Assembly (NCBI RefSeq): GCF_001514065.1
Contig: NZ_KQ948426.1
Location: 620,001-684,000, forward strand
DNA: 64,000 nt
Direction: 5' to 3'
Origin: Streptomyces antibioticus
Lineage (GTDB): Bacteria > Actinomycetota > Actinomycetes > Streptomycetales > Streptomycetaceae
Shown here: piece after piece, positions 42,366-56,183 of the stretch
How the letters are laid out: the number at the start of each line of letters is the position of its first letter
How positions within the stretch are numbered: position 1 is the stretch's first letter
Made by a program: the position numbers and the translations under genes
The notes under the pieces: model-generated
What the model saw: only the letters and a program-made list of their open reading frames with translations
Told to the model about the DNA's origin: nothing
Database searches by the model: none

Positions 42366-43811
42366 ATGCGAACCGACTCTTCTCCCGGCACTCTGCCGGC
42401 GCGGGAGCACCTCCCGGCCACAGACGCCGGTACGCCTGTCCTGGACGTAGTGATCCCCGTCTACAACGAGGAGAAGGACCTCCAGCCGTGTGTGCGCAGA
42501 CTGCACGAGCACCTCGCGCGCACCTTCCCGTACGCGTTCCGCATCACGATCGCGGACAACGCGTCGACGGACACCACCCCGCAGGTGTCCCGGCGGCTGG
42601 AGGCGGAGATCGCCGAGGTCCGGGCCTTCCGCCTGGAGCAGAAGGGCCGTGGCCGCGCCCTGCGCGCCGTGTGGTCCGCCTCGGACGCGCCGATCCTCGC
42701 CTACATGGACGTGGACCTGTCCACCGACCTCAACGCCCTGCTCCCGCTGGTGGCCCCGCTGATCTCGGGCCACTCCGACCTGGCGATCGGATCCCGCCTC
42801 GCCCGCTCGTCCCGAGTGGTGCGCGGCCCCAAGCGGGAGTTCATCAGCCGCTCGTACAACCTCATCCTGCGCGGCTCGCTCCAGGCCCGCTTCTCGGATG
42901 CGCAGTGCGGCTTCAAGGCCATCCGGCGTGATGTGGCGCAGGCGCTGCTGCCGATGGTCGAGGACACCGGCTGGTTCTTCGACACCGAGATGCTCGTCAT
43001 CGCCGAGCGCGCGGGACTCCGTATCCACGAAGTGCCCGTCGACTGGGTCGACGACCCCGACTCCACCGTCCACATCGTCAGGACGGCGGCCGAGGACCTG
43101 AAGGGGGTGTGGCGGGTCGGCAAGGCGCTGGCCTCGGGCTCGCTGCCGCTGGACCGGATCGCGCGTCCCTTCGGCGACGACCCGCGCGACCGCGAGATCA
43201 AGGACGTACCGAAGGGGCTGGCCCGCCAGCTCGTCGGGTTCTGTGTCGTCGGCGGCCTGTCGACCCTCTTCTACCTCCTCCTCTACAGCGGCTTCCGGAC
43301 CTTCTCCGGCTCGCAGGTCGCCAACGCGCTCGCGCTGCTGGTCTCCGCCGTCGCCAACACGGCGGCCAACCGCCGGCTCACCTTCGGGGTGCGCGGCAGC
43401 GGCGGTGCCGTACGGCACCAGGCGCAGGGCCTCGTCGTCTTCGGTATCGGCCTCGCCCTGACCAGCGGCTCGCTCGCCGCCCTCGACGCGGCCGGCGGCA
43501 ACCCGGCGCACTCCACCGAACTGGCGGTCCTGATCGCCGCCAACCTCGCGGCGACCGTGCTGCGCTTCCTGCTCTTCCGGGCCTGGGTGTTCCCCGAGCG
43601 CCGCGACTCGACGGTGATCGCGAGCCACACCCCCGCCCCGCAGCCGCCACTGCCGGTGCGCCCGGGCGGCAACCACTTCACGTACGACGACTACGACGAC
43701 TACGACGACCAGTTCCGCGCCGGTGAAGCCGCGGACCGCACCTGGGGGGACGCCACCATGCAGTTGCAGCCGGTGCGCCCGACCGACACCGACCCGAGGG
43801 ACGCCCGATGA
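42366..43811 (+). CDS. GT2 glycosyltransferase (dolichyl-phosphate-mannose synthase type) fused to GtrA
   Basis: This 481-aa protein has a GT-A domain at about 25-255, with DVVIPVYNEEKDL, the nucleotide-sugar/metal motif AYMDVDLSTDL and SDAQCGFKAIRRD as in DPM1/polyprenyl-phosphate glycosyltransferases. A four-helix GtrA domain follows at about 285-405. It would load a sugar onto polyprenyl phosphate and present it across the membrane. The tail carries a DDYDDYDD repeat. The ATG at 42366 is my choice; one at 42330 would overlap the kinase gene. Its stop overlaps the GT39 start (ATGA). Confidence 0.88.
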   Translation: MRTDSSPGTLPAREHLPATDAGTPVLDVVIPVYNEEKDLQPCVRRLHEHLARTFPYAFRITIADNASTDTTPQVSRRLEAEIAEVRAFRLEQKGRGRALRAVWSASDAPILAYMDVDLSTDLNALLPLVAPLISGHSDLAIGSRLARSSRVVRGPKREFISRSYNLILRGSLQARFSDAQCGFKAIRRDVAQALLPMVEDTGWFFDTEMLVIAERAGLRIHEVPVDWVDDPDSTVHIVRTAAEDLKGVWRVGKALASGSLPLDRIARPFGDDPRDREIKDVPKGLARQLVGFCVVGGLSTLFYLLLYSGFRTFSGSQVANALALLVSAVANTAANRRLTFGVRGSGGAVRHQAQGLVVFGIGLALTSGSLAALDAAGGNPAHSTELAVLIAANLAATVLRFLLFRAWVFPERRDSTVIASHTPAPQPPLPVRPGGNHFTYDDYDDYDDQFRAGEAADRTWGDATMQLQPVRPTDTDPRDAR

Positions 43812-45892
43812 CCATCACCAGGACGGCCGTTCAGGAGCCCCCGGCTTCCCCGGCCCCGCCCGCCCCCGAGGCCGGTGAGCCCAAGCAGCCGTTCGTGCGC
43901 AGACTCTGGCGCGGCCGGCCCGAGGACCCCCGCTGGGCGCGCCCGGCCTTCTGGGCCCTGCTGCTCGCCACCGCGGTCCTGTACTTCTACAACCTGAGCT
44001 CCTCCGGTTACGCCAACTCCTTCTACTCGGCCGCCGTCCAGGCCGGCAGCCAGTCCTGGAAGGCGTTCTTCTTCGGCTCGCTCGACGCGTCCAACGCCAT
44101 CACCGTCGACAAGCCGCCGGCCTCGCTGTGGCCGATGGCGCTGTCGGTGCGGATCTTCGGGCTCAGCTCCTGGGCGATCCTGATGCCCGAGGTGCTGATG
44201 GGGATCGGCGCGGTCGCCGTCGTGTACGCCTCCGTGCGCCGCCGCTTCAGCCCCGCGGCCGGTCTCATCGCGGGCGCCGTGCTCGCGCTCACCCCCGTCG
44301 CTGCGCTGATGTTCCGGTTCAACAACCCGGACGCGATGCTCGCCCTGCTGATGGCCGTGGCCTGCTACTTCGTGGTCCGCGCCCTGGAGGACGGCCGGAC
44401 GAAGTGGCTGGTGTGGGCGGGCGTGGCGATCGGCTTCGCCTTCCTCGCCAAGACCCTCCAGGCCTTCCTGATCCTGCCGCCGCTCGCGATCGTGTACGCG
44501 GTCTGCGCGCCGGTGCCGGTGAAGAAGCGCCTCGGCCAACTGGCCGCCGCGACCGCCGCGTTGATCGTCTCCGGCGGCTGGTGGGTCGCGATCGTCGAAC
44601 TGTGGCCCGCCTCCTCCCGCCCCTACATCGGCGGCTCCCAGAACAACTCCTTCCTTGAACTGACCTTCGGCTACAACGGACTCGGCCGCCTCAACGGCGA
44701 CGAGACCGGCAGCGTCGGCGGTGGCGGCGGCAACGGCGGCGGCCAGTGGGGCGAGACCGGCTGGGACCGGATGTTCAACTCCGAGATCGGCGGCCAGATC
44801 TCCTGGCTGCTCCCGGCGGCCCTGATCCTGCTGGTCGCGGGCCTGTGGGCCACGCGCAAGGCCCGCAGGACGTCCGTCACCCGCGGTTCGTTCCTGGTCT
44901 GGGGCGGCTCGCTGGTCATCACCATGGTCGTCTTCAGCTACATGGCGGGCATCTTCCACCAGTACTACACGGTGGCCCTCGCCCCCTACATGGCGGCCGT
45001 GATCGGGATGGGCGCCGGACTGCTGTGGGAGAAGCGCGCCGAGCTGTGGGCGTCGATCACGCTGGCGGCATCGGTCGTGGCCGCGGCCGCCTGGAGCTAC
45101 GTCCTCCTCAATCGCACCTCCGACTACCTGCCCTGGCTGAAGTGGCTGGTCCTGGTCGGCGGTCTGACCGCGGCGCTCGGCCTGATCTTCGCGGGCCGCA
45201 TCAACCGCCGACTCGCCCTGGCGGCGGCGTCCCTGGGCCTGGTGGCCGCCCTCGCCGGCCCGACCGCGTACACCATCAGCACCCTCCAGGAGGGCCACTC
45301 CGGCTCCATCGTGACGGCCGGCCCGGCGGGCGCGAGCATGATGGGCGGCGGCGGCCGGGGCGGTGGCCCTGGCGGCGGCGGTGGCTTCCCGGGCGGCGGC
45401 CGTCTGCCCGGTCAGAACCAGCAGAACGGCAACGGCGGCACCCAGAACCAGCAGAACGGCGGTATGCCGGGCGGCATGGGCGGCGACGGCGGTGGCATGG
45501 GCGGCGGCGGTGGCGCCGGCGGCCTGCTGAACGGCGCGACCGTCTCCGACGAGGCCAAGAAGCTGCTGGAGACGGACTCCGACCACTACACCTGGGTCGC
45601 GGCGGCCATCGGCGCGCAGAACGCGGCGAGTTACCAGCTCTCCACCGGCGACCCGGTGATGGCGATCGGCGGCTTCAACGGCACCGACCCGTCCCCGACC
45701 CTGGCCCAGTTCCAGCAGTACGTCGAGGACGGCAAGATCCACTACTTCATCGCGTCCGGCTCCGGCGGTGGCATGGGCGGCAGCAGCAGCGGCACGTCCT
45801 CGCAGATCACCTCCTGGGTCGAGGCCAACTTCAAGAAGGTGACGGTGGGTTCGTCGACCTTCTACGACCTGACGCAGAAGGCGAGCAGCTGA
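43808..45892 (+). CDS. GT39/ArnT-like membrane glycosyltransferase
   Basis: This 694-aa polytopic enzyme has about eleven helices. The acidic catalytic loop of the PMT/ArnT superfamily is seen as SLDASNAITVDKPPASLW near residues 95-110, and FRFNNPDAML is the second conserved block. A long extracytoplasmic C-terminal domain contains a Gly/Gln/Asn-rich stretch (about residues 510-580) before a folded end. It would transfer a sugar from a polyprenyl-phosphate donor, probably made by the coupled GT2-GtrA protein, to an envelope acceptor. It is the last gene of the operon, followed by a strong terminator. Confidence 0.87.
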   Translation: MTITRTAVQEPPASPAPPAPEAGEPKQPFVRRLWRGRPEDPRWARPAFWALLLATAVLYFYNLSSSGYANSFYSAAVQAGSQSWKAFFFGSLDASNAITVDKPPASLWPMALSVRIFGLSSWAILMPEVLMGIGAVAVVYASVRRRFSPAAGLIAGAVLALTPVAALMFRFNNPDAMLALLMAVACYFVVRALEDGRTKWLVWAGVAIGFAFLAKTLQAFLILPPLAIVYAVCAPVPVKKRLGQLAAATAALIVSGGWWVAIVELWPASSRPYIGGSQNNSFLELTFGYNGLGRLNGDETGSVGGGGGNGGGQWGETGWDRMFNSEIGGQISWLLPAALILLVAGLWATRKARRTSVTRGSFLVWGGSLVITMVVFSYMAGIFHQYYTVALAPYMAAVIGMGAGLLWEKRAELWASITLAASVVAAAAWSYVLLNRTSDYLPWLKWLVLVGGLTAALGLIFAGRINRRLALAAASLGLVAALAGPTAYTISTLQEGHSGSIVTAGPAGASMMGGGGRGGGPGGGGGFPGGGRLPGQNQQNGNGGTQNQQNGGMPGGMGGDGGGMGGGGGAGGLLNGATVSDEAKKLLETDSDHYTWVAAAIGAQNAASYQLSTGDPVMAIGGFNGTDPSPTLAQFQQYVEDGKIHYFIASGSGGGMGGSSSGTSSQITSWVEANFKKVTVGSSTFYDLTQKASS

Positions 45893-45962: not shown

Positions 45963-45996
45963 TGTACGCCGTATAGGAACAGTTCTACGGTGTACA
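45963..45996. promoter_or_regulatory. TetR-type operator touching the MFS start codon
   Basis: TGTACGCCGTA and TACGGTGTACA are inverted arms (10 of 11 match) separated by 12 bases; the right arm ends 2 bases before the ATG at 45999. TATAGG within the spacer could be the -10. A similar half, TGTACAGCTA, lies at 47560-47569 before the TetR gene, so the downstream TetR protein probably binds both. Confidence 0.72.
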
Positions 45997-45998
45997 GC

Positions 45999-47462
45999 AT
46001 GTCTGCTCCCGCACCCGCCACCGTCGTCCAGAGCCACCCCCAGCGCTGGCTCATCCTCGGTGTCATCTGCCTCGCCCAGCTCACCGTCGTCCTCGACAAC
46101 ACCGTGCTGAACGTCGCGATCCCCTCGCTCACCCGCGAACTGGGCGCGGCCACCTCGGACATCCAGTGGATGATCAACGCGTACTCCCTGGTGCAGTCCG
46201 GGCTGCTGCTCGCCGCGGGCAGCGCCGCCGACAGGTACGGCCGCAAGAAGATGCTGATAGCCGGCCTGAGCCTGTTCGGCATCGGTTCGCTGGTCGCCGG
46301 ACTGGCCGACAGCACGGGCCAGTTGATCGCGGCGCGGGCCGGGATGGGCCTCGGCGGCGCGCTGCTGCTGACCACCACCCTCGCTGTCGTGATGCAGATC
46401 TTCGCGCCCGAGGAGCACGCCAGGGCCATCGGCATCTGGGCCGCCGTCAACGCCCTCGGGTTCGCGTGCGGTCCGCTGCTCGGCGGGTTCATGCTGGACC
46501 ACTTCTGGTGGGGTGCGATCTTCCTGATCAACCTGCCGGTCGCGGCGGTGGGGTTGGTGGCCGCGGTGACGCTGGTGCCGGAGTCGAAGAGCCCGCGAGG
46601 AGACCGTCCCGACCTGCTGGGCGCGCTGCTGTCGACGATCGGCATGGCGGCGCTCGTCTTCGCGATCATCTCCGGCCCCGAGCACGGCTGGACGTCGGGC
46701 CGGGTGCTGCTGACGGCGGCCGTCGCGGTGGCCGTGCTGGGCGGGTTCGCGTACTGGGAGAGCCGGATCGAGCACCCCATGCTCGACCTGCACTTCTTCA
46801 GGAACCGCCGCTTCACGGGCGCCATCGCGGGCGCGGTGCTGATCACCTTCGGCATGGGCGGCTCGCTCTTCCTGCTCACCCAGCACATGCAGTTCGTCCT
46901 CGGCTACGGCCCCCTGGAGGCCGGTCTGCGCACCGCGCCGCTCGCCCTGTCGATCGTCGTCCTCAACTTCTCGGGCCTGGCGGCGAAAGCGGCGACGAAG
47001 CTGGGGAATCCGGCCGCCATCGGAGTGGGCATGGCGCTGATGGCGGCCGGGCTGGCGTCCATCGCGGCGGTCGCCTCCGGCGGTTACGCCGGGACGCTGA
47101 TCGGGCTGCTGCTCGTCGGGGCGGGGGCGGCGATCGCCAGCCCGGCGATGGCGCACGCCATCATGAGCTCCATTCCGCCGGAGAAGGCGGGGATCGGGGC
47201 GGGTATCAACGGGACGGTGGCGGAGTTCGGCCAGGGGTTGGGGGTGGCGGTACTCGGCGCGGTGCTGACCTCGCGGTTCGCGGCGGAGTCCTTGCCGGCG
47301 GCGTTGGCCGAGGCGGGGTCGGTTGCGGAGAAGGTGCGTGTGACGGAGGCGTTCTCTTCTGGGCTGGAGAGCAGTTTGCTGGTGGGGGCGGTTGCGGTGT
47401 TGGCCGGTGGGCTGGTCGCCGCTGCGTTGTTGAGGCGGGCTGAGCGGGGTGAGGGCGCCTAG
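45999..47462 (+). CDS. EmrB/QacA-type (DHA2) MFS drug exporter
   Basis: This 487-aa protein has about 14 helices. Family motifs are visible: LDNTVLNVAIPSL in helix 1 (motif D1), AAGSAADRYGRKK (motif A) and an antiporter motif C-like GFACGPLLGGFM in helix 5. It would export hydrophobic drugs or metabolites using the proton gradient. I placed the start at the ATG at 45999; a GTG at 45990 lies inside the operator. With no ribosome site and a possible -10 in the operator, the transcript may be leaderless or nearly so. The TetR gene follows on the same strand. Confidence 0.88.
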   Translation: MSAPAPATVVQSHPQRWLILGVICLAQLTVVLDNTVLNVAIPSLTRELGAATSDIQWMINAYSLVQSGLLLAAGSAADRYGRKKMLIAGLSLFGIGSLVAGLADSTGQLIAARAGMGLGGALLLTTTLAVVMQIFAPEEHARAIGIWAAVNALGFACGPLLGGFMLDHFWWGAIFLINLPVAAVGLVAAVTLVPESKSPRGDRPDLLGALLSTIGMAALVFAIISGPEHGWTSGRVLLTAAVAVAVLGGFAYWESRIEHPMLDLHFFRNRRFTGAIAGAVLITFGMGGSLFLLTQHMQFVLGYGPLEAGLRTAPLALSIVVLNFSGLAAKAATKLGNPAAIGVGMALMAAGLASIAAVASGGYAGTLIGLLLVGAGAAIASPAMAHAIMSSIPPEKAGIGAGINGTVAEFGQGLGVAVLGAVLTSRFAAESLPAALAEAGSVAEKVRVTEAFSSGLESSLLVGAVAVLAGGLVAAALLRRAERGEGA

Positions 47463-47490
47463 GAGCTCGGGGGGTACGGCTGGATTGCGA

Positions 47491-47534
47491 CGGCGGGCCG
47501 TCGTGGTTGCTCGCGCGGTTCCCCGCGCCCCTGA
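47491..47534 (-). repeat. Streptomyces-type intergenic repeat, copy 2 (inverted)
   Basis: Read on the minus strand, this gives CAGGGGCGCGGGGAACCGCG followed by CGAGCAACCACGAC, matching the core of the copy at 9713. It lies between the MFS and TetR genes. Confidence 0.6.
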
Positions 47535-47581
47535 CGAGGCGCTTAAAGTGGGCGGCGTTTGTACAGCTAGGAAGGTGCGCC

Positions 47582-48346
47582 ATGGAGAAAGCCGGCCAGC
47601 GGGCCGCGCGTACCAGTGTCTGGCTCGAAGGCAAGGCGCGGCGCGGCAGCCGGGGCGGCAGTCAGCCCTCCGGGCTCGACCGCGACCGCATCACCTCGGC
47701 CACCGTCCGGCTCCTCGACAGTGAAGGGCTGGCCAAGTTCTCCATGCGGCGGCTCGCCGCGGAGCTGAACGTCACCGCGATGTCCGTCTACTGGTACGTC
47801 GACACCAAGGACGACCTCCTCGAACTCGCCCTCGACGCCACCTACGGCGAACTGAACCTCCCCGACCCGCAGGCGGACGGCGAGGACTGGCGCGGCCAAC
47901 TCCGGGTGCTGGCCCGGGGCTACCGTTCCCTGCTGGTACGGCACCCCTGGATGTCCTCGCTGGTCGGCACGTTTCTCAACATCGGGCCCAACAGCCTGGT
48001 CTTCTCCCGGCGCATCCACGGTGTCGTCCGCCGCACCGGCCTGCCCGCGCACGGCCTGGCGGCGGCCATCTCCGCGGTCTTCCAGTTCGTGTACGGCTTC
48101 GGCACCATCGAGGGCCAGTTCAATGCCCGTTCCGCCCAGGTCGGCATGACCCCCGACGAGTACTTCCGCGACGCGATGAGCGCGGTGAGCCAGGCCCCGC
48201 AGACCGCCGACCTCGTCAAGGAGGCGGAGGACATCATGGCGGCGCGGGGCGGCGACACGGTCGAGGAGATGTGGGAGCGGGACTTCGACTTCGCCCTCGA
48301 CCTGCTGATCGCGGGGATCGAGGCGATGGTCAGGCGTCAGGCGTGA
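47582..48346 (+). CDS. TetR-family transcriptional regulator
   Basis: This 254-aa repressor has a basic N-terminal tail of about 38 residues, then the TetR helix-turn-helix at about 40-85 (ITSATVRLLDSEGLAKFSMRRLAAELNVTAMSVYWYVDTKDDL). A C-terminal ligand domain of the TetR_C class carries FQFVYGFGTIEGQF. The ATG at 47582 follows GGAAGG. It probably represses the upstream exporter through the TGTACxCCGTA operator. Its 3' end overlaps the convergent PPOX gene by 17 bases. Confidence 0.9.
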   Translation: MEKAGQRAARTSVWLEGKARRGSRGGSQPSGLDRDRITSATVRLLDSEGLAKFSMRRLAAELNVTAMSVYWYVDTKDDLLELALDATYGELNLPDPQADGEDWRGQLRVLARGYRSLLVRHPWMSSLVGTFLNIGPNSLVFSRRIHGVVRRTGLPAHGLAAAISAVFQFVYGFGTIEGQFNARSAQVGMTPDEYFRDAMSAVSQAPQTADLVKEAEDIMAARGGDTVEEMWERDFDFALDLLIAGIEAMVRRQA

Positions 48347-48803
48347 CGAGGCGGGCCGGGAAACCACCCGTGGCCACCGGCCCCCACTTCTCCGGTGTGA
48401 TCCGGATGATCGACTTGCCCTGCTTCACCATCGCCGCCCGGTACTCGTCCCAGTCCGGGTGCTCCCCGGCGATGTTCCGGTAGTACTCCACGAGCGGCTC
48501 GACGGAGTCGGGTGAGTCGATGACCTCGGCGGTGCCGTCGATCTGGACCCACGGTCCGTTCCAGTCGTCGCTCAGCACGACGACGCTGACCCGCTCGTCG
48601 CGCTTGGCGTTGCGCGTCTTGGCCCGCTCCGGGTAGGTGGAGACGACGATCCGCCCGGAGTCGTCGACCCCGCACGTCAGCGGAGACGCCTGCGGGCTGC
48701 CGTCGCCCCGCCGCGTGAGCAGGAGAGCGTGGTGCCGGGGCCGTACGAAGTCCAGCAACTCGTCGAGGGAAACACGCGTGTTGGTAGCGATGCTCGGTGC
48801 CAT
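48330..48803 (-). CDS. PPOX-class F420/FMN-binding oxidoreductase-like protein
   Basis: This 157-aa split-barrel protein (pyridoxamine 5'-phosphate oxidase superfamily) has HHALLLTRRGDGSPQASPL at the N-terminus, GRIVVSTYPERAKTRNAKRDERVSVVVL (the cofactor-phosphate Arg/Lys stretch) and a C-terminal IIRITPEKWG. Small proteins of this type in actinobacteria often use F420 rather than FMN. It starts 9 bases after the YceI-like gene ends, so the two are probably cotranscribed. Confidence 0.87.
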   Translation of the reverse strand: MAPSIATNTRVSLDELLDFVRPRHHALLLTRRGDGSPQASPLTCGVDDSGRIVVSTYPERAKTRNAKRDERVSVVVLSDDWNGPWVQIDGTAEVIDSPDSVEPLVEYYRNIAGEHPDWDEYRAAMVKQGKSIIRITPEKWGPVATGGFPARLVTPDA

Positions 48804-48812
48804 GGCCCCACC

Positions 48813-49637
48813 CTAGGCCTGCGGAGGCAGGGACTCCCCTTGCACCGCCTGAATGTCGAGCTCCACCTTCAGCGTCGTACCGATGGCCGCGATCCCCGCC
48901 TGCACGACCTGGTTGTAGTTCATCGCGAAGTCGTCCCGCCGCAGCTCGGTCGTCGCCCGGAACGCCGCGCGCGTCCCGCCCCACGGGTCGGCGCCGGTGC
49001 CGAGGTAGGCGAGGTCCAGGTCGACCGGCCGTACGACACCGCGCATGCTCAGCTCCCCGTGCACGGTCCACCGGTCGGCACCCGCCACCGCGATCCCCGT
49101 CGACCGGTAGGTGATCTCGGGGTGCACCTCGACGTCCAGGAAGTCGGCGGACCGCAGATGGCCGTCGCGCATCGCGTTCCCGGTGTCGACGGACGCGGCC
49201 CGGATCACCGCCTCCACCCGGGACTTGGTGACGTCGTCCGGAGCGATCTCGATGGTGCCGGCGAAGTCCGTGAAGCGGCCGTGCACGCTGGAGATGCCCA
49301 GGTGCTGGGCCACCGCGCCGACGCTGGAGTGCACCGGGTCGATGGTCCACGGCCCCGGCGGCGGGAGTTCGGTGCCGCCCTGCCGGGCCAGGGTGACCGT
49401 GCCGACCTCGGCCCGGCCGCTCGCCGTGACGATCGCGCTCGACGCGGCGGGCGCGTAGCCGACGGCGGTGACGATGACGGTGTACGCGCCGGGCGCCAGC
49501 GGCTCGGGGTCGCGGACCGCGCCCTCCTCGTCGGCCTCGGCGCGCAGCACCTGCGTGCCGGTCATGTCCGTCACCGTGACGACCGCGTGCGACACGGCCC
49601 ATCCGTCCCGGGTACGGATCCTCGCGGTCAGTCCCAT
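48813..49637 (-). CDS. YceI-family protein with N-terminal carboxypeptidase-regulatory-like domain
   Basis: This 274-aa protein has residues 1-90 as a beta-sandwich of the carboxypeptidase regulatory type (AVVTVTDMTGTQVLRAEADEEG, LAPGAYTVIVTAVGYAPAA). Residues 98-272 are a YceI lipocalin-like barrel (WTIDPVHSSVGAVAQHLGISSVHGRF, LRSADFLDVEVHPEITYRST, LSMRGVVRPVDLDL). YceI proteins bind isoprenoid or amphipathic lipids. No signal peptide is seen, unusual for the family. The MFS gene just upstream ends in three copies of the same beta-sandwich type. Confidence 0.85.
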   Translation of the reverse strand: MGLTARIRTRDGWAVSHAVVTVTDMTGTQVLRAEADEEGAVRDPEPLAPGAYTVIVTAVGYAPAASSAIVTASGRAEVGTVTLARQGGTELPPPGPWTIDPVHSSVGAVAQHLGISSVHGRFTDFAGTIEIAPDDVTKSRVEAVIRAASVDTGNAMRDGHLRSADFLDVEVHPEITYRSTGIAVAGADRWTVHGELSMRGVVRPVDLDLAYLGTGADPWGGTRAAFRATTELRRDDFAMNYNQVVQAGIAAIGTTLKVELDIQAVQGESLPPQA

Positions 49638-49663
49638 CTCAGCTCTTCTCTCCTCACACAGGT

Positions 49664-49710
49664 CCGGCCCGTGGGGCGCGCCTCCGCTCGAAACGCGCTC
49701 CACGGGCCGG
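49664..49710 (-). terminator. Hairpin between the MFS and YceI-like genes
   Basis: CCGGCCCGTGG and CCACGGGCCGG form an 11-bp stem enclosing a 25-base region that can partly pair. It is likely a terminator or attenuator after the MFS gene (stop at 49724). Confidence 0.6.
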
Positions 49711-49723
49711 GGTATTCAGTGAC

Positions 49724-52228
49724 TCACTCGCCGGGGTGCGCGAGCTCGATGTCGTGACCGTCGGCTCCCCGCCCGGTCACCGTCAGGGCCGTCGCGACCG
49801 GCGGGTAGCCCGTCGCGATGACCGTGTACTCGCCGCCGTCCAGGTCGGTGAAGGCGTACGCCCCGTCCGACCCGGTGGTGGCGGTGCCGACCACGTTGCC
49901 GGCCGCGTCCACGAGGGTCACCCGTGCGTCGGCCAGCGGACCGTGCGGCGCCCGTACGACGCCCTGGACCTGGGCGCCGGAGTCCAGCTCCACCTCGATG
50001 CGGGTGACACCCGCCCCGCCGACCTCGACGGGCAGCGCGCGCGGCCGGTACCCGGCGGCGTTCACCGCGACGGTCACGGCACCCGGCACCAGCTCGGCGA
50101 AACCGAACTCGCCCTGCTCACCGGTGGTCCCGGTGGCCAGCAGATCACCGCGGACGTCGGTCACGATGACCATGGCGTCCTTCACCGGCAGCGCGCCGTC
50201 CGAGGCCCGGACGACCCCGCTCAGCCCGCTCGTGCCGCTGAGCAGGATGTCGAACGCCACCGGCTCGCCGTTGACCACGACGGTGGACGCCTGCGGCTGG
50301 AAGCCGTCCGCGGCGGCGATCAGGACGTACGACCCGACGCTGGGCGCCTCCACCCCGTACGAACCGTCCGCCTGCGTCACCGACCGGCCCAGCTGCCGTC
50401 CCGCGAGCGAGATCAGCGTGACCGCGGCCTGCGGGACGGGCGCGCTCTCGGCGCCGCGGACATGACCGCGGACCGGGATGCCGCCGGACGGTACGGCCGG
50501 GGCCTCGACGGTCGCCACGGCGGCGAGCCGCTGGGTGCCGTCGGAGACCGGCTCGGCGGTGGCCCAGCTGGGCACCCGCTCCTCGGCCACCGGCGCCTGA
50601 GCAACGGCCTCCACCGGAGCCTGCTCAGCCTCCGACTCGGACGCCGCCTGCGCCAGCGCGCCCTTGGTCTTCAGCGGGACCTCCTTGATGAACAGCGTGA
50701 TCAGGAAGGCGGCCGCGGCCAGGCAGGCGGCGATCAGGAACACGTCCGCGATGCCGTGGCCGTACGCGCTCTCCATGACCGTGCGCAGCGGCGCGGGCAG
50801 TTTGTCCATGTCCGGGATCTCGCTGGAGCCGCTCGAACCGGAGGCGAGGGAGGCGTACTTGGGGCCGAGGTCGGTCAGGCCGTCCTTGACGTAGTCGGTG
50901 ATCTTGTCGGCCATCACGGCACCGAGCACCGAGACGCCCATCGCACCGCCGAGGGACCGGAAGAAGGTGACCGTGGAGGACGCCGAACCGAGGTCCTTGG
51001 GCTCGACCTGGTTCTGCGTGCACAGCACCAGGTTCTGCATCATCATGCCGATGCCGAGACCCAGCAGGGCCATGAAGATCGCGGTCTTCCAGTAGTCCGT
51101 GTCGTAGCGGATGGTGCCGAGCAGGCCGAGGCCCGCCGTGATGAGCACGCCACCGCTGACCAGCCAGGCCTTCCAGCGCCCGGTGCGGGTGATGAACTGC
51201 CCGGAGACGGTGGAGGAGATGAACAGTCCGCCGATCATCGGGATGGTCAGCACGCCGGACATGGTCGGGGACTTGTCGCGGGCCAGCTGGAAGTACTGGG
51301 CGAAGAAGACCGTGCCGGAGAACATCGCCGTACCGACGAACATCGAGGCGATGGACGACAGGGTGATGGTCGGGTTCTTGAACAGCCGCAGCGGGATGAG
51401 GGGTTCGGAGGCCTTGGACTCCACCAGCACGAAGATCAGGGCGAGCGCGATGGAACCGCCGACCATGGCGTAGGTCTGCCAGGAGATCCAGTCGAACTTG
51501 TCACCGGCGAAGGTGACCCAGATCAGCAGCAGCGACACGGCCGCCGCGACGAAGAACGCGCCGGCCCAGTCGACCTTCACGTCCCGCTTCACGACCGGCA
51601 GGTGCAGGGTCTTCTGGAGCACGATCAGCGCGATCACGGCGAAGGGCACACCGACGTAGAAGCACCAGCGCCAGCCGAGCCAGGAGGTGTCGGTGATGAC
51701 ACCGCCGAGCAGCGGGCCGCCGACGGTGGCGACGGCGAAGGTCGCGCCGAGGTAGCCGGAGTAACGGCCGCGCTCGCGCGGGGAGATCATCGCCGCCATC
51801 ACGATCTGCGCGAGGGCGGAGAGGCCGCCGACGCCGATGCCCTGGACCACGCGGAAGGTGATCAGCATGCCGGCGTTCTGGGAGAGTCCGGCCGCGGCCG
51901 ATCCCAGCACATAGATGACGAGCGCTATCTGGACGAGCGCCTTCTTGCTGTAGAGGTCGGCGAGCTTGCCCCACAGTGGGGTGGAGGCCGTCATCGACAG
52001 CAGGGCGGCGGTGACGACCCAGGTGTAGGCGGACTGACCGCCGCCGAGGTCACCGATGATCTCCGGGAGGGCGTTCGAGACGATCGTGGACGACAGGATC
52101 GCCACGAACATCCCGAGCAGCAGCCCGGAGAGCGCCTCCATGATCTGCCGGTGCGTCATCGGGGCATGCTCGGCGCCTCCCCCGTGCTTGGCATGAGCCC
52201 GCACACCGGCTGGTGTGGTCGTTGCCAT
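49724..52228 (-). CDS. EmrB/QacA-type MFS exporter fused to three carboxypeptidase-regulatory-like domains
   Basis: This 834-aa fusion has residues 28-545 as a 14-helix DHA2 exporter (LGMFVAILSSTIVSNALPEI, GKLADLYSKK). A Glu/Ala linker (550-590) leads to three tandem beta-sandwich repeats at about 595-672, 675-748 and 752-830. Each has the pattern GxVRxxxGxPVxxAxVTLxDxxG, DGxYxF and GxYxVxxxAxGYxP. With even helix number and the N-terminus inside, these domains are predicted cytoplasmic, which is odd for a domain type usually extracellular. The MarR gene 13 bases upstream is surely cotranscribed. Confidence 0.88.
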   Translation of the reverse strand: MATTTPAGVRAHAKHGGGAEHAPMTHRQIMEALSGLLLGMFVAILSSTIVSNALPEIIGDLGGGQSAYTWVVTAALLSMTASTPLWGKLADLYSKKALVQIALVIYVLGSAAAGLSQNAGMLITFRVVQGIGVGGLSALAQIVMAAMISPRERGRYSGYLGATFAVATVGGPLLGGVITDTSWLGWRWCFYVGVPFAVIALIVLQKTLHLPVVKRDVKVDWAGAFFVAAAVSLLLIWVTFAGDKFDWISWQTYAMVGGSIALALIFVLVESKASEPLIPLRLFKNPTITLSSIASMFVGTAMFSGTVFFAQYFQLARDKSPTMSGVLTIPMIGGLFISSTVSGQFITRTGRWKAWLVSGGVLITAGLGLLGTIRYDTDYWKTAIFMALLGLGIGMMMQNLVLCTQNQVEPKDLGSASSTVTFFRSLGGAMGVSVLGAVMADKITDYVKDGLTDLGPKYASLASGSSGSSEIPDMDKLPAPLRTVMESAYGHGIADVFLIAACLAAAAFLITLFIKEVPLKTKGALAQAASESEAEQAPVEAVAQAPVAEERVPSWATAEPVSDGTQRLAAVATVEAPAVPSGGIPVRGHVRGAESAPVPQAAVTLISLAGRQLGRSVTQADGSYGVEAPSVGSYVLIAAADGFQPQASTVVVNGEPVAFDILLSGTSGLSGVVRASDGALPVKDAMVIVTDVRGDLLATGTTGEQGEFGFAELVPGAVTVAVNAAGYRPRALPVEVGGAGVTRIEVELDSGAQVQGVVRAPHGPLADARVTLVDAAGNVVGTATTGSDGAYAFTDLDGGEYTVIATGYPPVATALTVTGRGADGHDIELAHPGE

Positions 52229-52241
52229 GGGCTTCCTTCTC

Positions 52242-52754
52242 TTAAGTGTTCGCGGGTGTACGGGTGGTCTCCACGGACGTCGTGTCCGCGGATACGTCTA
52301 CGGCTCCGGATACGTGAGGGGCGCCGCGGCCGTCGTCGAAGCTCGCCCGGAGCCGGGCCATGAGCCCGCTCAACTGGGCCACCTCGTCGTCGCTCCAGTC
52401 GCTCAGCCGCTCGGCGAGCATCCGGCAGGTCCGCTCCGACAGCTCGTCGAGCCGGGCCAGGCCCGCCGGGGTGAGGTGCAGGATGCGGCCGCGCTTGTCC
52501 GTCGGGTCGGGGGAGCGCCGTATCCAGCCCCGCTCGGCGAGGTGCGCCGCATGGCGGCTGGTCACCGACATGTCCACGGCGAGCAGCTCCGAGAGCTTGC
52601 TCATGCGCATGTCCCCGTGACGGGCGAGCAGCGTCAGCACGGCGGCGGAACCGCTCGGGCAGTCGGACGGCAGGATCCGCCCCATCTCCCGCTTCACGGC
52701 ACCGAAGGCACTGAACTGGCGCATCAGCTCCTCGTACTGCGGCTGACCGGCCAT
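52242..52754 (-). CDS. MarR-family regulator of the MFS operon
   Basis: This 170-aa winged-helix regulator has RMSKLSELLAVDMSVTSRHAAHLAERGWIRRSPDPTDKRGR at residues about 50-90 with the conserved wing, and a long C-terminal dimer helix before a Ser/Thr-rich tail. It heads the operon with the fused exporter. Three TTGC-n5-GCAA-type sites lie within 100 bases upstream of its start, so it is probably autoregulated and drug-inducible. Confidence 0.9.
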   Translation of the reverse strand: MAGQPQYEELMRQFSAFGAVKREMGRILPSDCPSGSAAVLTLLARHGDMRMSKLSELLAVDMSVTSRHAAHLAERGWIRRSPDPTDKRGRILHLTPAGLARLDELSERTCRMLAERLSDWSDDEVAQLSGLMARLRASFDDGRGAPHVSGAVDVSADTTSVETTRTPANT

Positions 52755-52771
52755 GCCACCTCCCGTATTCG

Positions 52772-52784
52772 TTGCTTAGGGCAA
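52772..52784. promoter_or_regulatory. MarR operator site 1
   Basis: TTGCTTAGGGCAA (TTGC-n5-GCAA dyad) lies 18 bases before the MarR start. It repeats at 52801. Confidence 0.72.
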
Positions 52785-52800
52785 CCATAGGAGCGATTGG

Positions 52801-52813
52801 TTGCTACAGGCAA
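52801..52813. promoter_or_regulatory. MarR operator site 2
   Basis: TTGCTACAGGCAA has the same TTGC-n5-GCAA dyad as site 1, 29 bases away centre to centre. This is nearly three helical turns, suiting cooperative binding on one face. Confidence 0.72.
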
Positions 52814-52842
52814 ATAAAACGGTGTGGGTGCGACATAAAAAC

Positions 52843-52855
52843 TTGGCAAAGGCAA
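52843..52855. promoter_or_regulatory. Possible third, weaker MarR site
   Basis: TTGGCAAAGGCAA matches the TTGC-n5-GCAA pattern with one change. It is 42 bases from site 2 and closer to the divergent small membrane-protein gene. Confidence 0.4.
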
Positions 52856-52912
52856 GTATTGCGAGCGTAAACGCGCATGTGAGAGGGGCTGAAGCAGGTC
52901 CCCGCCCCGCAC

Positions 52913-52941
52913 TTGGGCCGTCACGGCGGATTCGCTAGTGT
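52913..52941 (+). promoter_or_regulatory. Promoter of a leaderless small membrane-protein gene
   Basis: TTGGGC (52913-52918), a 17-base spacer and TAGTGT (52936-52941) fit a housekeeping promoter. The ATG is 8 bases after the -10, so the mRNA would start at or next to the start codon; there is no ribosome site. Confidence 0.6.
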
Positions 52942-52949
52942 CTCGGGGC

Positions 52950-53153
52950 ATGGCTAACACCCAGGACCCCCAGGGCAACTACGACCCCGCCGGCAGCACC
53001 CAGATGTTCCGCGCGTTCGTCGACGAGGGCCCCCAGGGCCGGCAGCAGGCGGCCGCCGCCCCCACCTCGTCCGGCCCGCGCATCGGCCTGATCGTCGGTG
53101 TCGTCGTCGCCGTGGCGATCGTCGCGGCGGTGGCCTGGCTGGCGCTCAAGTAG
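52950..53153 (+). CDS. Small tail-anchored membrane protein, 67 aa
   Basis: A hydrophilic N-terminus of about 42 residues (MANTQDPQGNYDPAGSTQMF, then Gln/Ala-rich) is followed by one C-terminal helix (RIGLIVGVVVAVAIVAAVAWLALK), giving a tail-anchored layout. No family is recognised. A clear promoter 8 bases upstream suggests leaderless translation. It is convergent with the lipoprotein gene at 53163, 9 bases apart. Confidence 0.75.
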   Translation: MANTQDPQGNYDPAGSTQMFRAFVDEGPQGRQQAAAAPTSSGPRIGLIVGVVVAVAIVAAVAWLALK

Positions 53154-53162
53154 TTCGCGACG

Positions 53163-53861
53163 TCACTTCCAGCGGACGTCGACGTCCCGCGTCTCGATGT
53201 GCATGCCGAGCGGCACGCGCCACTCCTCGACGCACACCGTCCACGTCCGCTCCTTCCGCGCGCCGCCCTCCACCGGCGCCGGAAGGCCGACCTGCGACTC
53301 GACGGTCGCCCAGTCGATCCCGAGCGCCCCGATGACATGCGTCCCGAACCGCACGGTCCCCGAACGGACCGCGGCCTCCCCGGAGTTGTGGAAGACGAGC
53401 GTCACGTCCTCGCACCACCGCCGGTCGGTGGCCGTCCGCACGGGAGCGTCCCAGGTGAGCGCGGCGGGCGCGGTCGTCCGACCGGGGGAGGCCGTCGGGG
53501 ACGGTGAACCGGACGCCGTACGACCGGACTTGGCACCGCTCGACGGGCGGGCGCTCGGCGCCGGGAGTTCCGGGGCCGGGAGTTCCGGGGTCGGTGAACC
53601 GTCCGCGGGGGCAGGGGAGTTGCCGACGCCCGGGCTCGACTCACCGCTCTTGAGCGGCACCACCCGCACGTCCCCCGTCGGCTGCGCGGGCGAGGGCGTG
53701 CCGCCTGCCGGGCCGACCGCCGTGTAACCGTCACCGGCGCTCCCGCAGCCGGCCAGGGCCACCCCCAGACAGACGACGGCCGCCGATGCGCCGATCAGGG
53801 CGCCTCGACGGCCATACGTCCATGTCGTACTCGGTGTCGTGCCCGGTGTCCTACGGAGCAT
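53163..53861 (-). CDS. Putative lipoprotein with Pro/Ser-rich linker
   Basis: This 232-aa protein has a basic N-terminus and hydrophobic segment ending in a lipobox (VALAGC, Cys near 39). A roughly 95-residue Pro/Ser/Thr/Ala linker with PELPAPELPAP repeats follows. The C-terminal domain of about 95 residues has two Cys (DRRWCEDVTLVF and WTVCVEEWR) and a beta-rich pattern. It would stand off from the membrane surface. I do not recognise the domain. The next gene upstream on this strand is the SigN-like sigma factor, 39 bases away. Confidence 0.75.
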   Translation of the reverse strand: MLRRTPGTTPSTTWTYGRRGALIGASAAVVCLGVALAGCGSAGDGYTAVGPAGGTPSPAQPTGDVRVVPLKSGESSPGVGNSPAPADGSPTPELPAPELPAPSARPSSGAKSGRTASGSPSPTASPGRTTAPAALTWDAPVRTATDRRWCEDVTLVFHNSGEAAVRSGTVRFGTHVIGALGIDWATVESQVGLPAPVEGGARKERTWTVCVEEWRVPLGMHIETRDVDVRWK

Positions 53862-53900: not shown

Positions 53901-54791
53901 TCAGTCGGAGATGAGGCCTTCCCGCAGCTGCGCCAGGGTCCGGGTCAGCAGCCGGGAGACGTGCATCTGGGAGATGCCGACCTCCTCGCCGATCTGCGAC
54001 TGGGTCATGTTGGCGAAGAAGCGCAGCATGATGATCTGGCGCTCGCGGGGCGGCAGCTTGGCGAGCAGCGGCTTCAGGGACTCGCGGTACTCGACGCCCT
54101 CCAGGGCGGTGTCCTCGTAGCCGAGGCGGTCCGCGAGGGAGCCCTCGCCGCCGTCGTCCTCCGGGGCCGGGGAGTCGAGCGAGGAAGCGGTGTAGGCGTT
54201 GCCGACCGCGAGGCCGTCGACGACGTCCTCCTCCGACACCCCGAGAACCGCGGCGAGTTCGGCGACGGTCGGGGAGCGGTCGAGCTTCTGCGAGAGCTCG
54301 TCGCTGGCCTTGGTGAGGGCGAGCCGCAGCTCCTGGAGGCGCCGGGGCACCCGCACCGACCAGGACGTGTCCCGGAAGAACCGCTTGATCTCACCGACGA
54401 CCGTCGGCATCGCGAACGTCGGGAACTCCACGCCCCGTTCGCAGTCGAAGCGGTCGATCGCCTTGATCAGGCCGATGGTGCCGACCTGGACGATGTCCTC
54501 CATCGGCTCGTTGCGCGAGCGGAACCGGGCGGCGGCGTACCGCACCAGCGGGAGGTTGAGCTCGATCAGGGTGTCCCGGACGTAGGCACGCTCGGGGCTG
54601 TTCTCGTCGAGTGCGGCGAGCCGCAGGAAGAGGGAGCGGGACAGGGTGCGGGTGTCGATGGCTCCCGAGGCCACGGGGGCCGGGAGAGCCGGGGCCGGCG
54701 CGGCCTCGACAGCGGTTACGGCGTCGAGCGCGGGCGCGGACTCGCTCTTCGTGAGCGTGAGCACCTTCGAGCTGCCCTGGTCTGCGGACAT
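53901..54791 (-). CDS. sigN: SigB/SigF-family RNA polymerase sigma factor, probable SigN
   Basis: This 296-aa sigma factor has region 2 ([37 protein letters not shown]), region 3 ([20 protein letters not shown]) and region 4 ([39 protein letters not shown]). I chose the ATG at 54791 ([10 protein letters not shown]) with AGAGGGGG upstream; a longer reading exists. Two SigF-type genes in tandem match, from memory, the S. coelicolor sigN-sigF pair. SigN acts in the subapical stem of aerial hyphae and drives nepA. Which copy is which is inferred from order and length. Confidence 0.8.
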
Positions 54792-55104
54792 GCCACCCCC
54801 TCTGGGTCGCGGGACGGTCGCGGCGGGCGTTCCGTCGAGAACGTCAGCCTTCACCTGAATACCGGAGCCGAAGCCCCGGCAAACGCGCTTCCGGCAGAAT
54901 GTCACATGTCGGCAACACGCTGTAGTGACATGTCGACATGCGAGACGTGAATACGCCCTGGATAAAGGGGGTCTGACGGTTTTTCGGCGCGGAACTGCCG
55001 GGATCCGTGCTGGTGAGCGATTCGCTCGCGAAGGTGATCTATCGCATCTGCATTCGGTTGGGCCTCAGCTGGGCCTCATTCGATTCCCGACCGGAGCTCC
55101 GGCT
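54792..55104. other. 313-base region between the two sigma factor genes
   Basis: It holds the SigN-like promoter. A perfect palindrome CATGTCGACATG is at 54929-54940, and a related ACATGTCGG is at 54904-54912, hinting at a regulator site about 140 bases before the start. I found no gene and no convincing terminator after the SigF-like gene. Confidence 0.5.
54929..54940. promoter_or_regulatory. Perfect palindrome upstream of the SigN-like gene
   Basis: CATGTCGACATG is self-complementary over 12 bp, with the half-site ACATGTCG repeated 17 bases away. It is a candidate operator for developmental control of the sigma gene. Confidence 0.45.
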
Positions 55105-55995
55105 TCAGGCCTCGATGCGATTCGCGGACCGCAACCGCTGGAAGCTACGCGCGAGTAGCCGCGAGACATGCATCTGGGAGACGCCGAGTTCCGCGCTGAT
55201 CTGCGACTGGGTGAGATTGCTGTAGTAGCGCAGCAGCAGAATCCGCTGTTCCCGCTCGGGCAGTTGCACCAGCAGATGCCGTACGAGATCCCGGTGCTCC
55301 ACGCCGTCCAGGGCGGGGTCCTCGTAGCCGAGCCGGTCAAGGAGGCCCGGCAGTCCGTCGCCCTCCTGGGCGGCCTCCAGCGAGGTCGCGTGGTACGACC
55401 GGCCGGCCTCGATGCAGGACAGCACCTCGTCCTCGCCGATGCGCAGCCGCTCGGCGATCTCGGCGGTGGTGGGGGTGCGTCCGAAGGCCGTGGTCAGGTC
55501 CTCCGTCGCGCTGTTGACCTGCACCCACAGCTCGTGCAGCCGGCGCGGTACGTGCACGGTCCGTACGTTGTCCCGGAAGTACCGCTTGATCTCGCCGACG
55601 ACCGTCGGCATCGCGAACGTCGGGAACTGCACACCGCGGTCCGGGTCGAAGCGGTCGATGGCGTTGATGAGCCCGATGGTGCCGACCTGGACGACGTCCT
55701 CCATCGGCTCGTTGCGGGAGCGGAAACGGGCGGCCGCGTAGCGCACGAGCGGGAGGTTGGCCTCGATGAGCGCCCCACGCACCCGGTTGTGCTCCGGCGT
55801 GCCCGGCTGGAGCCCCTTGAGCTGGCCGAAGAGCACCTGGGTGAGCGCCCGGGTGTCCGCTCCGCGGCTGCGCTGGGGGGCGGCGGGTGCCGGGGGCTGG
55901 ATCGGCGGGGAGGCCTGACCGGGCGCGGAGGTCTGAACGGGCGCGGGGGTCTGGACCGGCGCCTCTTCCTGGGGTGGCGCAGTACTGGCCGACAC
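55105..55995 (-). CDS. sigF: SigB/SigF-family RNA polymerase sigma factor, probable SigF
   Basis: This 296-aa sigma factor has a Pro/Gln/Ala-rich N-terminal tail ([17 protein letters not shown]), then region 2 nearly identical to its neighbour ([28 protein letters not shown]) and region 4 ([39 protein letters not shown]). I chose the GTG at 55995 because GAGGTGG is well spaced before it; a GTG 12 bases upstream is too close to that site. SigF of S. coelicolor acts late in spore maturation. No anti-sigma gene is adjacent. Confidence 0.82.
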
Positions 55996-56183
55996 GGTCA
56001 ACGCCACCTCTTCATCGGTCTACATCGGTCAACTCATCCGTCAAAAGCGGTCATAGCATCACAAGACATGTGCACTGTGTGCAAGCACCTCATAACGCCG
56101 TGTTGAGGGAAGAGTTGGGGCAGAAGACGCACGAAAGCCCCCCGCCGTTCCGACGAGGGGCCGAACGAGGTGGAACGGGGAAC

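Follow-up and report, generated by a model that had tools for sequence, protein, structure and literature searches.

Why should a likely drug exporter and the small protein encoded next to it carry the same accessory domain? The question is posed by a locus in a 64,000-nucleotide stretch of Streptomyces antibioticus DNA (positions 620001-684000 of contig 5, NZ_KQ948426.1, in a genome of 10.1 Mb; hereafter the window) that encodes, on one strand, a MarR-family regulator, an exporter of the major facilitator superfamily (MFS) with a C-terminal tail of three CarboxypepD_reg domains (PF13620, three stretches, 117.9 bits), and a protein in which one such domain precedes a YceI lipocalin-like barrel (henceforth reg-YceI; Table 1). 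A preliminary description made from the sequence had named these genes together with palindromes in front of the regulator, and Pfam profiles and a site scan bore out each element in its place. PF13620 scores over its cut-off in only eight genes of this genome (13 domain hits), namely two MFS exporters with three copies each, a third MFS exporter and an MMPL pump with a single C-terminal copy, two reg-YceI genes and two others (the third MFS exporter was identified by translation and by Pfam on the look-alike L294, and the MMPL pump by Pfam on L313; L and G numbers are our locus and genome labels). Because two of the eight genes are the neighbours considered here, the shared domain is hard to explain by chance.

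The tail and the fusion protein were searched for in 101 genomes of the family and 246 genomes of the class, two samples that share Streptomyces genomes; scoring was confined to the 25 or 10 best candidates of each genome, so that misses are possible. The tail was found in 71 of the 101 and 28 of the 246 genomes, and a fusion-type match in 42 and 29, respectively. When the merged rows (72 fusion, 152 tail) were compared by position, 47 of the 72 reg-YceI rows were at least 52% identical to the window's protein, and each of these 47 has a tailed exporter immediately upstream on the same strand, with 23-473 nt between the matches. These pairs span four families (f1, f19, f6 and f44), and the association of reg-YceI with the tailed exporter is strong. 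Since all 45 genomes with a close reg-YceI have the tail, and 35 genomes have the tail without a close reg-YceI, the dependence is one-way: reg-YceI goes with the tailed exporter, not the reverse.

The association is kept when the body of the exporter is exchanged. At L171, L176, L180 and L311, identity to the window is as low as 27-41% in the MFS body, but 54-69% in the tail and 65-75% in the adjacent reg-YceI (L180 counts for less, its genome being 10% contaminated by record); L178 and L179 combine a 26% identical body and a tail of about 66% identity with no reg-YceI neighbour. At the distant loci viewed, most other neighbours differ while the adjacency persists. On a tree of tails built from 85 of 103 records (L237 in G054, where the YceI gene was missed by the gene finder and is adjacent by position, was left out together with 17 Streptomyces records of L048-L065), 12 changes suffice for the reg-YceI label (shuffled mean 28.6), which is thus clustered without forming one clade, and the tails on foreign bodies nest among the YceI-linked tails.

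Related tails reach beyond this pairing. R1-type domains were found in 29 of 31 Streptomyces genomes, and of 20 loci taken, mostly more distant matches, 19 gave a domain protein, all 19 being pumps by Pfam (9 MFS and 10 MMPL; for L303 Pfam reported only MMPL at the threshold used, and L305 gave no protein). The tail is modular, occurring on differing MFS bodies with reg-YceI alongside, while similar tails end other MFS and MMPL pumps. MMPL pumps with one C-terminal CarboxypepD_reg domain (L313 3164-5800, contig 3 of the same genome) and with three (L307 2334-5414 and L308 723-3830) were observed. The second tailed MFS exporter of the genome (L166 7859-10838, contig 7) adjoins a gene for a Polyketide_cyc2 protein (polyketide cyclase / lipid transport, PF10604, 88.2 bits), and such a gene lies within 1.2 kb in 19 of the 21 loci of this second exporter clade among those retrieved; the 55 other tailed records have none. 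The same kind of tail is thus seen in two exporter clades, each beside a small binding-type protein of a different family.

Conservation within the genus was followed in 89 Streptomyces loci, taken from nine genomes of the genus and from the best 80 of 533 relatives of the YceI protein, all 80 titled Streptomyces (L026 and L083 look like the same contig); chosen by the YceI protein, these loci cannot alone show co-occurrence. At least part of the tail and both parts of the fusion are present in all 89; the MFS body is missing in three and MarR in six, these matches lying at contig ends. The exporter frame measures 799-866 aa in 82 of 83 measurable loci. Identity to the commonest residue in 44 exporter rows is 0.88 for the body, 0.62 for the linker and 0.91, 0.87 and 0.93 for tail domains R1, R2 and R3, so that conservation of the tail is close to that of the body; in 65 rows of Streptomyces reg-YceI orthologues (mean column identity 92%) it is 0.95 for the reg domain, 0.98 for the joint at residues 84-96 and 0.92 for the barrel. 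At its start the reg domain carries the segment R[TS][RK]DGWA-x-HA in 52 of 61 YceI proteins, and in 25 of the 34 belonging to loci L166 onward; this segment is a candidate docking face.

On which side of the membrane would the two proteins meet? In the exporter, 14 hydrophobic segments precede residue 515; basic loops alternate for the most part between the two sides, and the C-terminal segment that follows the last hydrophobic one starts basic. The AlphaFold model (mean predicted local distance difference test, pLDDT, 65.1) contains 14 long helices followed by three all-beta domains; pLDDT is below 50 at residues 1-67, 147-193 and 203-219 and in the linker at 521-581, and about 67-91 per ten residues in the tail domains, except at the very end. 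EmrB, EfpA and an Rv1410 homologue (8pnl) are the nearest folds to the body, which is best called EmrB-like rather than a filed EmrB because its TIGR00711 (DHA2/EmrB) score of 218.1 bits is under the curated cut-off of 230.2; MFS_1 scores above its cut-off. Given the 14 segments and helices, the basic start of the C-terminal segment and the flexible linker, the tail is predicted to lie in the cytosol. The highest 19-residue hydropathy within the first 60 residues of reg-YceI is 0.8, and by eye no hydrophobic leader was found in 34 N-terminal stretches from other loci (starts from a simple gene finder), so that hydropathy and N-termini alike place reg-YceI apart from signal-peptide-bearing secreted lipocalins of the BcnA type. 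The cytosolic location proposed for the repeats and for the YceI protein stands, as a prediction from these features.

The reg-YceI model has a mean pLDDT of 64.5, with residues 60-89 and 238-253 below 50, and its barrel matches E. coli YceI (1y0g, Foldseek E 7.7e-16), PA0423 (7bwl) and TT1927b (1wub); by their titles, 1wub is polyisoprenoid-binding and 7bwl an antibiotic sequester. In genome-wide scoring the YceI reg domain gives its best values with R2 (94), the third MFS tail (91) and the second exporter (86), and R2 is as close to R3 as to the YceI domain (32 of 80 identical residues in both cases). Descent of the YceI domain from one exporter repeat was considered, R2 being the best-scoring by a small margin over the others. 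A second reg-YceI group was also seen (L035 5177-6088, on contig 10 of the same genome; L036 5539-6447; L038 5446-6327), with no tailed exporter near these three loci; in L036 and L038 it lies near what we take to be lepA- and rpsT-like genes, and in the source genome presumably amid genes resembling a polyketide cluster.

The reading that we favour, with somewhat less than even confidence, is that of a cytosolic ligand-capture and export pair, in which reg-YceI docks on the exporter tail and hands a hydrophobic ligand to the pump. In the cytosol, the YceI barrel would take up a compound of hydrophobic or amphiphilic nature. Docking would be by the N-terminal CarboxypepD_reg domain, on the related three-domain tail, which a flexible linker is predicted to tether to the cytosolic end of the 14-helix exporter, and reg-YceI would pass its ligand to the pump. 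The upstream MarR, released by a drug-like ligand, would switch the exporter on. In Streptomyces a hairpin between the two genes would leave YceI with a smaller or independently set part of the transcription; in some other lineages the genes overlap. Capture and docking is the best-supported mechanism because the one-way association, 47 of 47, is kept across body replacements; every step after co-occurrence we infer. Precedents for the parts exist: the secreted YceI lipocalin BcnA is reported to bind antibiotics (PMC5350466), and in sulfonamide-degrading actinobacteria yceI adjoins sadA, the authors suggesting a role in uptake (PMC6868719).

Several observations weigh against this reading. The 25 rows of the second, more distant reg-YceI group (at most 49% identity) have no tail row within 10 kb, and 105 of the 152 tails are not adjacent to a close reg-YceI, including those of the orthologous exporters at L167 and L202 (bodies 78% and 64% identical), so that the tail is kept without a linked partner. 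The co-occurrence expected of the two fusions thus held from reg-YceI to tail and failed from tail to reg-YceI; the idea of the preliminary description is supported in part, and an obligate pairing is not supported. Even among the 22 Streptomyces genomes of the class sample a close reg-YceI is found in 17, and the pair is not universal; the exporter frame of L032 ends at 519 aa, before the tail. Both AlphaFold models are of moderate confidence, pLDDT falling below 50 in some stretches of the MFS body and at the end of the YceI reg domain. PF13620 domains are better known outside the cytosol, surface proteins often having them. Recombination could also keep tail and YceI together simply because their genes are physically linked, and SCO4030, by its number presumably the YceI gene of S. 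coelicolor, is absent from the main text of both transcriptome papers on that species considered below. As to L032, a tail-like sequence continues in another frame after the 519 aa, and the gene is broken or the sequence contains an error.

How far do other explanations account for the same facts? The tail might be a general regulatory or oligomerisation module, to which reg-YceI binds in order to gate or stabilise the pump upon ligand binding rather than to deliver cargo; the similar tails that end MFS and MMPL pumps at loci where no YceI gene was seen alongside favour this, as do reg domains that are alike across proteins (the equal R2-R3 and R2-YceI identities), and we hold it to be a minority possibility that deserves attention, the presence of two unrelated binding-type families, YceI and Polyketide_cyc2, beside tailed exporters fitting cargo handling better. 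Somewhat less probable, in our view rather unlikely, is that the two proteins are linked and work independently, reg-YceI sequestering a compound in the cytosol and the exporter removing it, with the shared domain a product of shuffling between neighbours that never touch. The closeness of the three best scores of the YceI domain agrees with such shuffling, and YceI lipocalins can act alone by binding antibiotics (PMC5350466), whereas a reg domain at least as conserved as the barrel, a still more conserved joint, and a segment R[TS][RK]DGWA-x-HA retained as an interface might be argue for contact.

That tail and YceI gene merely move as one segment of DNA, an association without function, we consider improbable: adjacency does let recombination move both, and the exporters of L178 and L311, with bodies 73% identical to each other, differ in whether a reg-YceI adjoins, yet the adjacency is kept in four families, with mostly different neighbours at the distant loci viewed, and tail and YceI are strongly conserved within Streptomyces. 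An arrangement in which both tail and YceI face outside, through an odd number of helices and non-classical export of the YceI protein, would suit the frequency of PF13620 in surface proteins; it is very improbable in view of the 14 hydrophobic segments, the basic loops mostly on the expected side, the basic start of the C-terminal segment, the 14 model helices and the lack of any leader seen.

If a capture-and-export pair is tentatively accepted, how is it controlled? With the pattern TTGC-N5-GCAA and up to one mismatch, the 64-kb window contains 8 matches, no more than the 11.1 expected by chance, so that the pattern alone is not rare; the only two perfect palindromes of the window, and one more, cluster upstream of MarR. 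The preliminary description had proposed tandem MarR sites, and the palindromes are borne out, their number being three, the third with one mismatch. Upstream regions of MarR, that of the window included, contain three palindromes in 69 of 81 cases and two in the other 12, at near-constant positions in the 11 regions inspected.

The arrangement corresponds to that of S. avermitilis, in which the MarR protein SAV4189 is reported to repress itself and the MFS gene SAV4190, to bind three 13-bp palindromes with the consensus TTGCCYKHRSCAA and to be released by hygromycin B and thiostrepton, deletion of SAV4190 giving a higher avermectin yield; the S. coelicolor homologues are SCO4032 and SCO4031 (PMC6036246). 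The window shares with this locus the order of MarR and MFS genes, a divergent membrane-protein gene, a MarR domain and three upstream 13-bp palindromes of the TTGCCYKHRSCAA type, and from the deletion coordinates published there the exporter gene would be about 2.5 kb long, as it is here (PMC6036246); orthology to SAV4189-SAV4190 and SCO4032-SCO4031 is taken from gene order, sites and published text. SAV4190 is named there an unknown transmembrane efflux protein, and YceI, carboxypeptidase, lipocalin and sav_4191 are terms that the main text of PMC6036246 does not use; nor were SCO4030 and SAV4191 found in the papers retrieved for SCO4031, SCO4032 or SAV4190. In two transcriptome papers on S. 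coelicolor, SCO4031 and SCO4032 are reported to shift in the same direction.

Does the regulator also reach the YceI gene? Its induction through MarR, as put forward in the preliminary description, is not supported in that form: it is unproven because in Streptomyces a conserved hairpin stands between the YceI gene and the exporter gene, and published work measures the MarR and exporter genes only. The window's hairpin has a minimum free energy of -47.3 kcal/mol (z -5.48; none of 200 shuffles equally stable), and a search for its exact pattern found a single site in the genome. The gap between exporter and YceI genes is at least 68 nt (median 103) in the 83 Streptomyces loci measured, and a stem of 13-33 pairs (median 23) forms in all 80 gaps folded (of 84, four were left out: one duplicate, one with N and two above 400 nt), these counts coming from each sequence's own fold and being biased toward pairing. 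RNAalifold, run on 44 hairpin cores chosen from 65 (one, L110, looks mis-cut), gave 21 pairs, six with two-sided changes, and a small covariation term of -1.02. An Rfam search of 47500-53200 with E up to 1 returned nothing at the hairpin and one match inside the exporter gene, far below the gathering score. A GAGCGGAG-type loop is kept in many of the hairpin copies. The hairpin looks like a terminator, attenuator or processing site and, given this loop, may be more than a plain terminator.

The distance from the hairpin to the YceI start codon (median 43 nt, range 8-130) often leaves little room for a promoter there, so that transcription of YceI may come from read-through or from a promoter lying further upstream. 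A MarR site upstream of YceI was considered and rejected: with up to one mismatch in 150 bp, one match was found in 21 of 89 loci, compared with at least two in all 81 MarR regions. In other lineages (L171, L206, L208, L209 and L210; starts from a simple gene finder) the exporter and YceI genes overlap by 4 nt, as they do at L170, where the YceI start is doubtful, and the overlapping genes probably share a transcript in those lineages. Open frames of 1117 and 1159 aa (G136 and G314) were considered as single-frame exporter-YceI fusions and rejected, the genes lying in different frames with a 4-nt overlap.

Which parts of this are already known? The barrel belongs to the same family and fold as BcnA/BcnB and PA0423 (PMC5350466, PMC9113575), and bcnA orthologues are reported to be generally linked to a membrane-protein gene, lcoA, of the cytochrome b561 type (PMC9113575); BcnA is secreted, whereas reg-YceI has no leader, carries an N-terminal CarboxypepD_reg domain and has an exporter as its membrane neighbour. 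The exporter body matches EmrB and EfpA in sequence and fold, but the matches end before the three-domain tail, which is extra here. The MFS exporter P55/Rv1410 is encoded with the lipid-binding protein LprG. The present pair resembles it in an MFS exporter of the same broad type paired with a lipid-binding protein, and differs in that LprG is an extracytoplasmic lipoprotein that is not known to share a domain with its exporter, whereas the partner here is predicted to be cytosolic and shares a domain; reg-YceI, having neither leader nor cysteine, is not a lipoprotein partner of the LprG type. The MarR-exporter type of locus and the individual components are thus already known; the association with reg-YceI, the modular tail, the Polyketide_cyc2 pairing and the conserved hairpin are new, and in the open-licence literature searched we found no description of the exporter tail or of the YceI-exporter link.

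Table 1 Features of the exporter locus in the window (positions in the 64,000-nt stretch)
Feature	Position	Strand	Basis or remark
F420-dependent PPOX-class oxidoreductase	48330-48803	-	TIGR03618, 131.5 bits (cut-off 79.05)
reg-YceI fusion protein, 274 aa	48813-49637	-	No signal peptide seen, no cysteine
YceI lipocalin-like barrel, residues 97-264	48846-49349	-	PF04264 1-150/150, 156.1 bits (cut-off 23.7)
CarboxypepD_reg domain of YceI protein, residues 3-83	49389-49631	-	PF13620, 34.9 bits (cut-off 32.3)
Exporter/YceI intergenic hairpin, putative terminator, attenuator or processing element	49664-49710, core 49666-49708	-	Folding, conservation
MFS exporter with C-terminal tail, 834 aa, SAV4190/SCO4031-type by gene order	49724-52228	-	
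Tail domain R3, residues 752-834	49727-49975	-	PF13620
Tail domain R2, residues 668-751	49976-50227	-	PF13620
Tail domain R1, residues 584-667	50228-50479	-	PF13620
Flexible linker, residues 516-583	50480-50683	-	Low pLDDT, low column identity
MFS body, residues 32-515, 14 hydrophobic segments	50684-52135	-	Pfam MFS_1 at 36-431
MarR-family regulator, 170 aa, SAV4189/SCO4032-type by gene order and sites	52242-52754	-	PF01047, 50.2 bits
Palindrome 1, TTGC-N5-GCAA	52772-52784		
Palindrome 2, TTGC-N5-GCAA	52801-52813		
Palindrome 3, TTGC-N5-GCAA with one mismatch	52843-52855		
Small divergent gene, membrane-protein-like, position of sav_4188	52950-53153	+	Read from sequence

The PPOX oxidoreductase gene, present in 86 of the 89 Streptomyces loci and missing in three, is the next gene and does not clearly belong to the exporter system. 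Further along the window, an apparent separate MFS exporter (45990-48346, read from sequence) adjoins a TetR-family regulator (Pfam), so that two pump-regulator pairs stand side by side. A large membrane protein with long glycine-rich low-complexity stretches is encoded at 43808-45892, and two consecutive genes at 53901-56007 resemble stress-type sigma factors in tandem, both read from sequence.

Of greater interest is the wider pattern, in which MFS and MMPL pumps share a tail. We suggest, as a speculative extension more doubtful than the pair itself, that in actinobacteria the beta-sandwich tail may be a cytosolic docking platform on which soluble carriers (reg-YceI through its matching domain, and possibly Polyketide_cyc2-type proteins) would feed hydrophobic compounds to MFS and MMPL exporters, a cytosolic counterpart, in the export direction, of binding-protein-plus-transporter systems. 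How hydrophobic substrates come to a drug exporter from within the cell is for the most part an open question. A domain layout is now given for a pump of the SAV4190 type, already deleted to raise avermectin yield, and the gene that follows it (YceI), unmentioned as sav_4191 in the main text of PMC6036246, is highlighted. The pair occurs in a leading antibiotic-producing genus, beside a type of regulator known to sense antibiotics, and beyond the genus in some distant relatives of Streptomyces; if the reading holds, so conserved a pairing of an exporter with a predicted cytosolic lipocalin that carries a matching domain would make delivery from the cytosol to a pump directly accessible to genetics.

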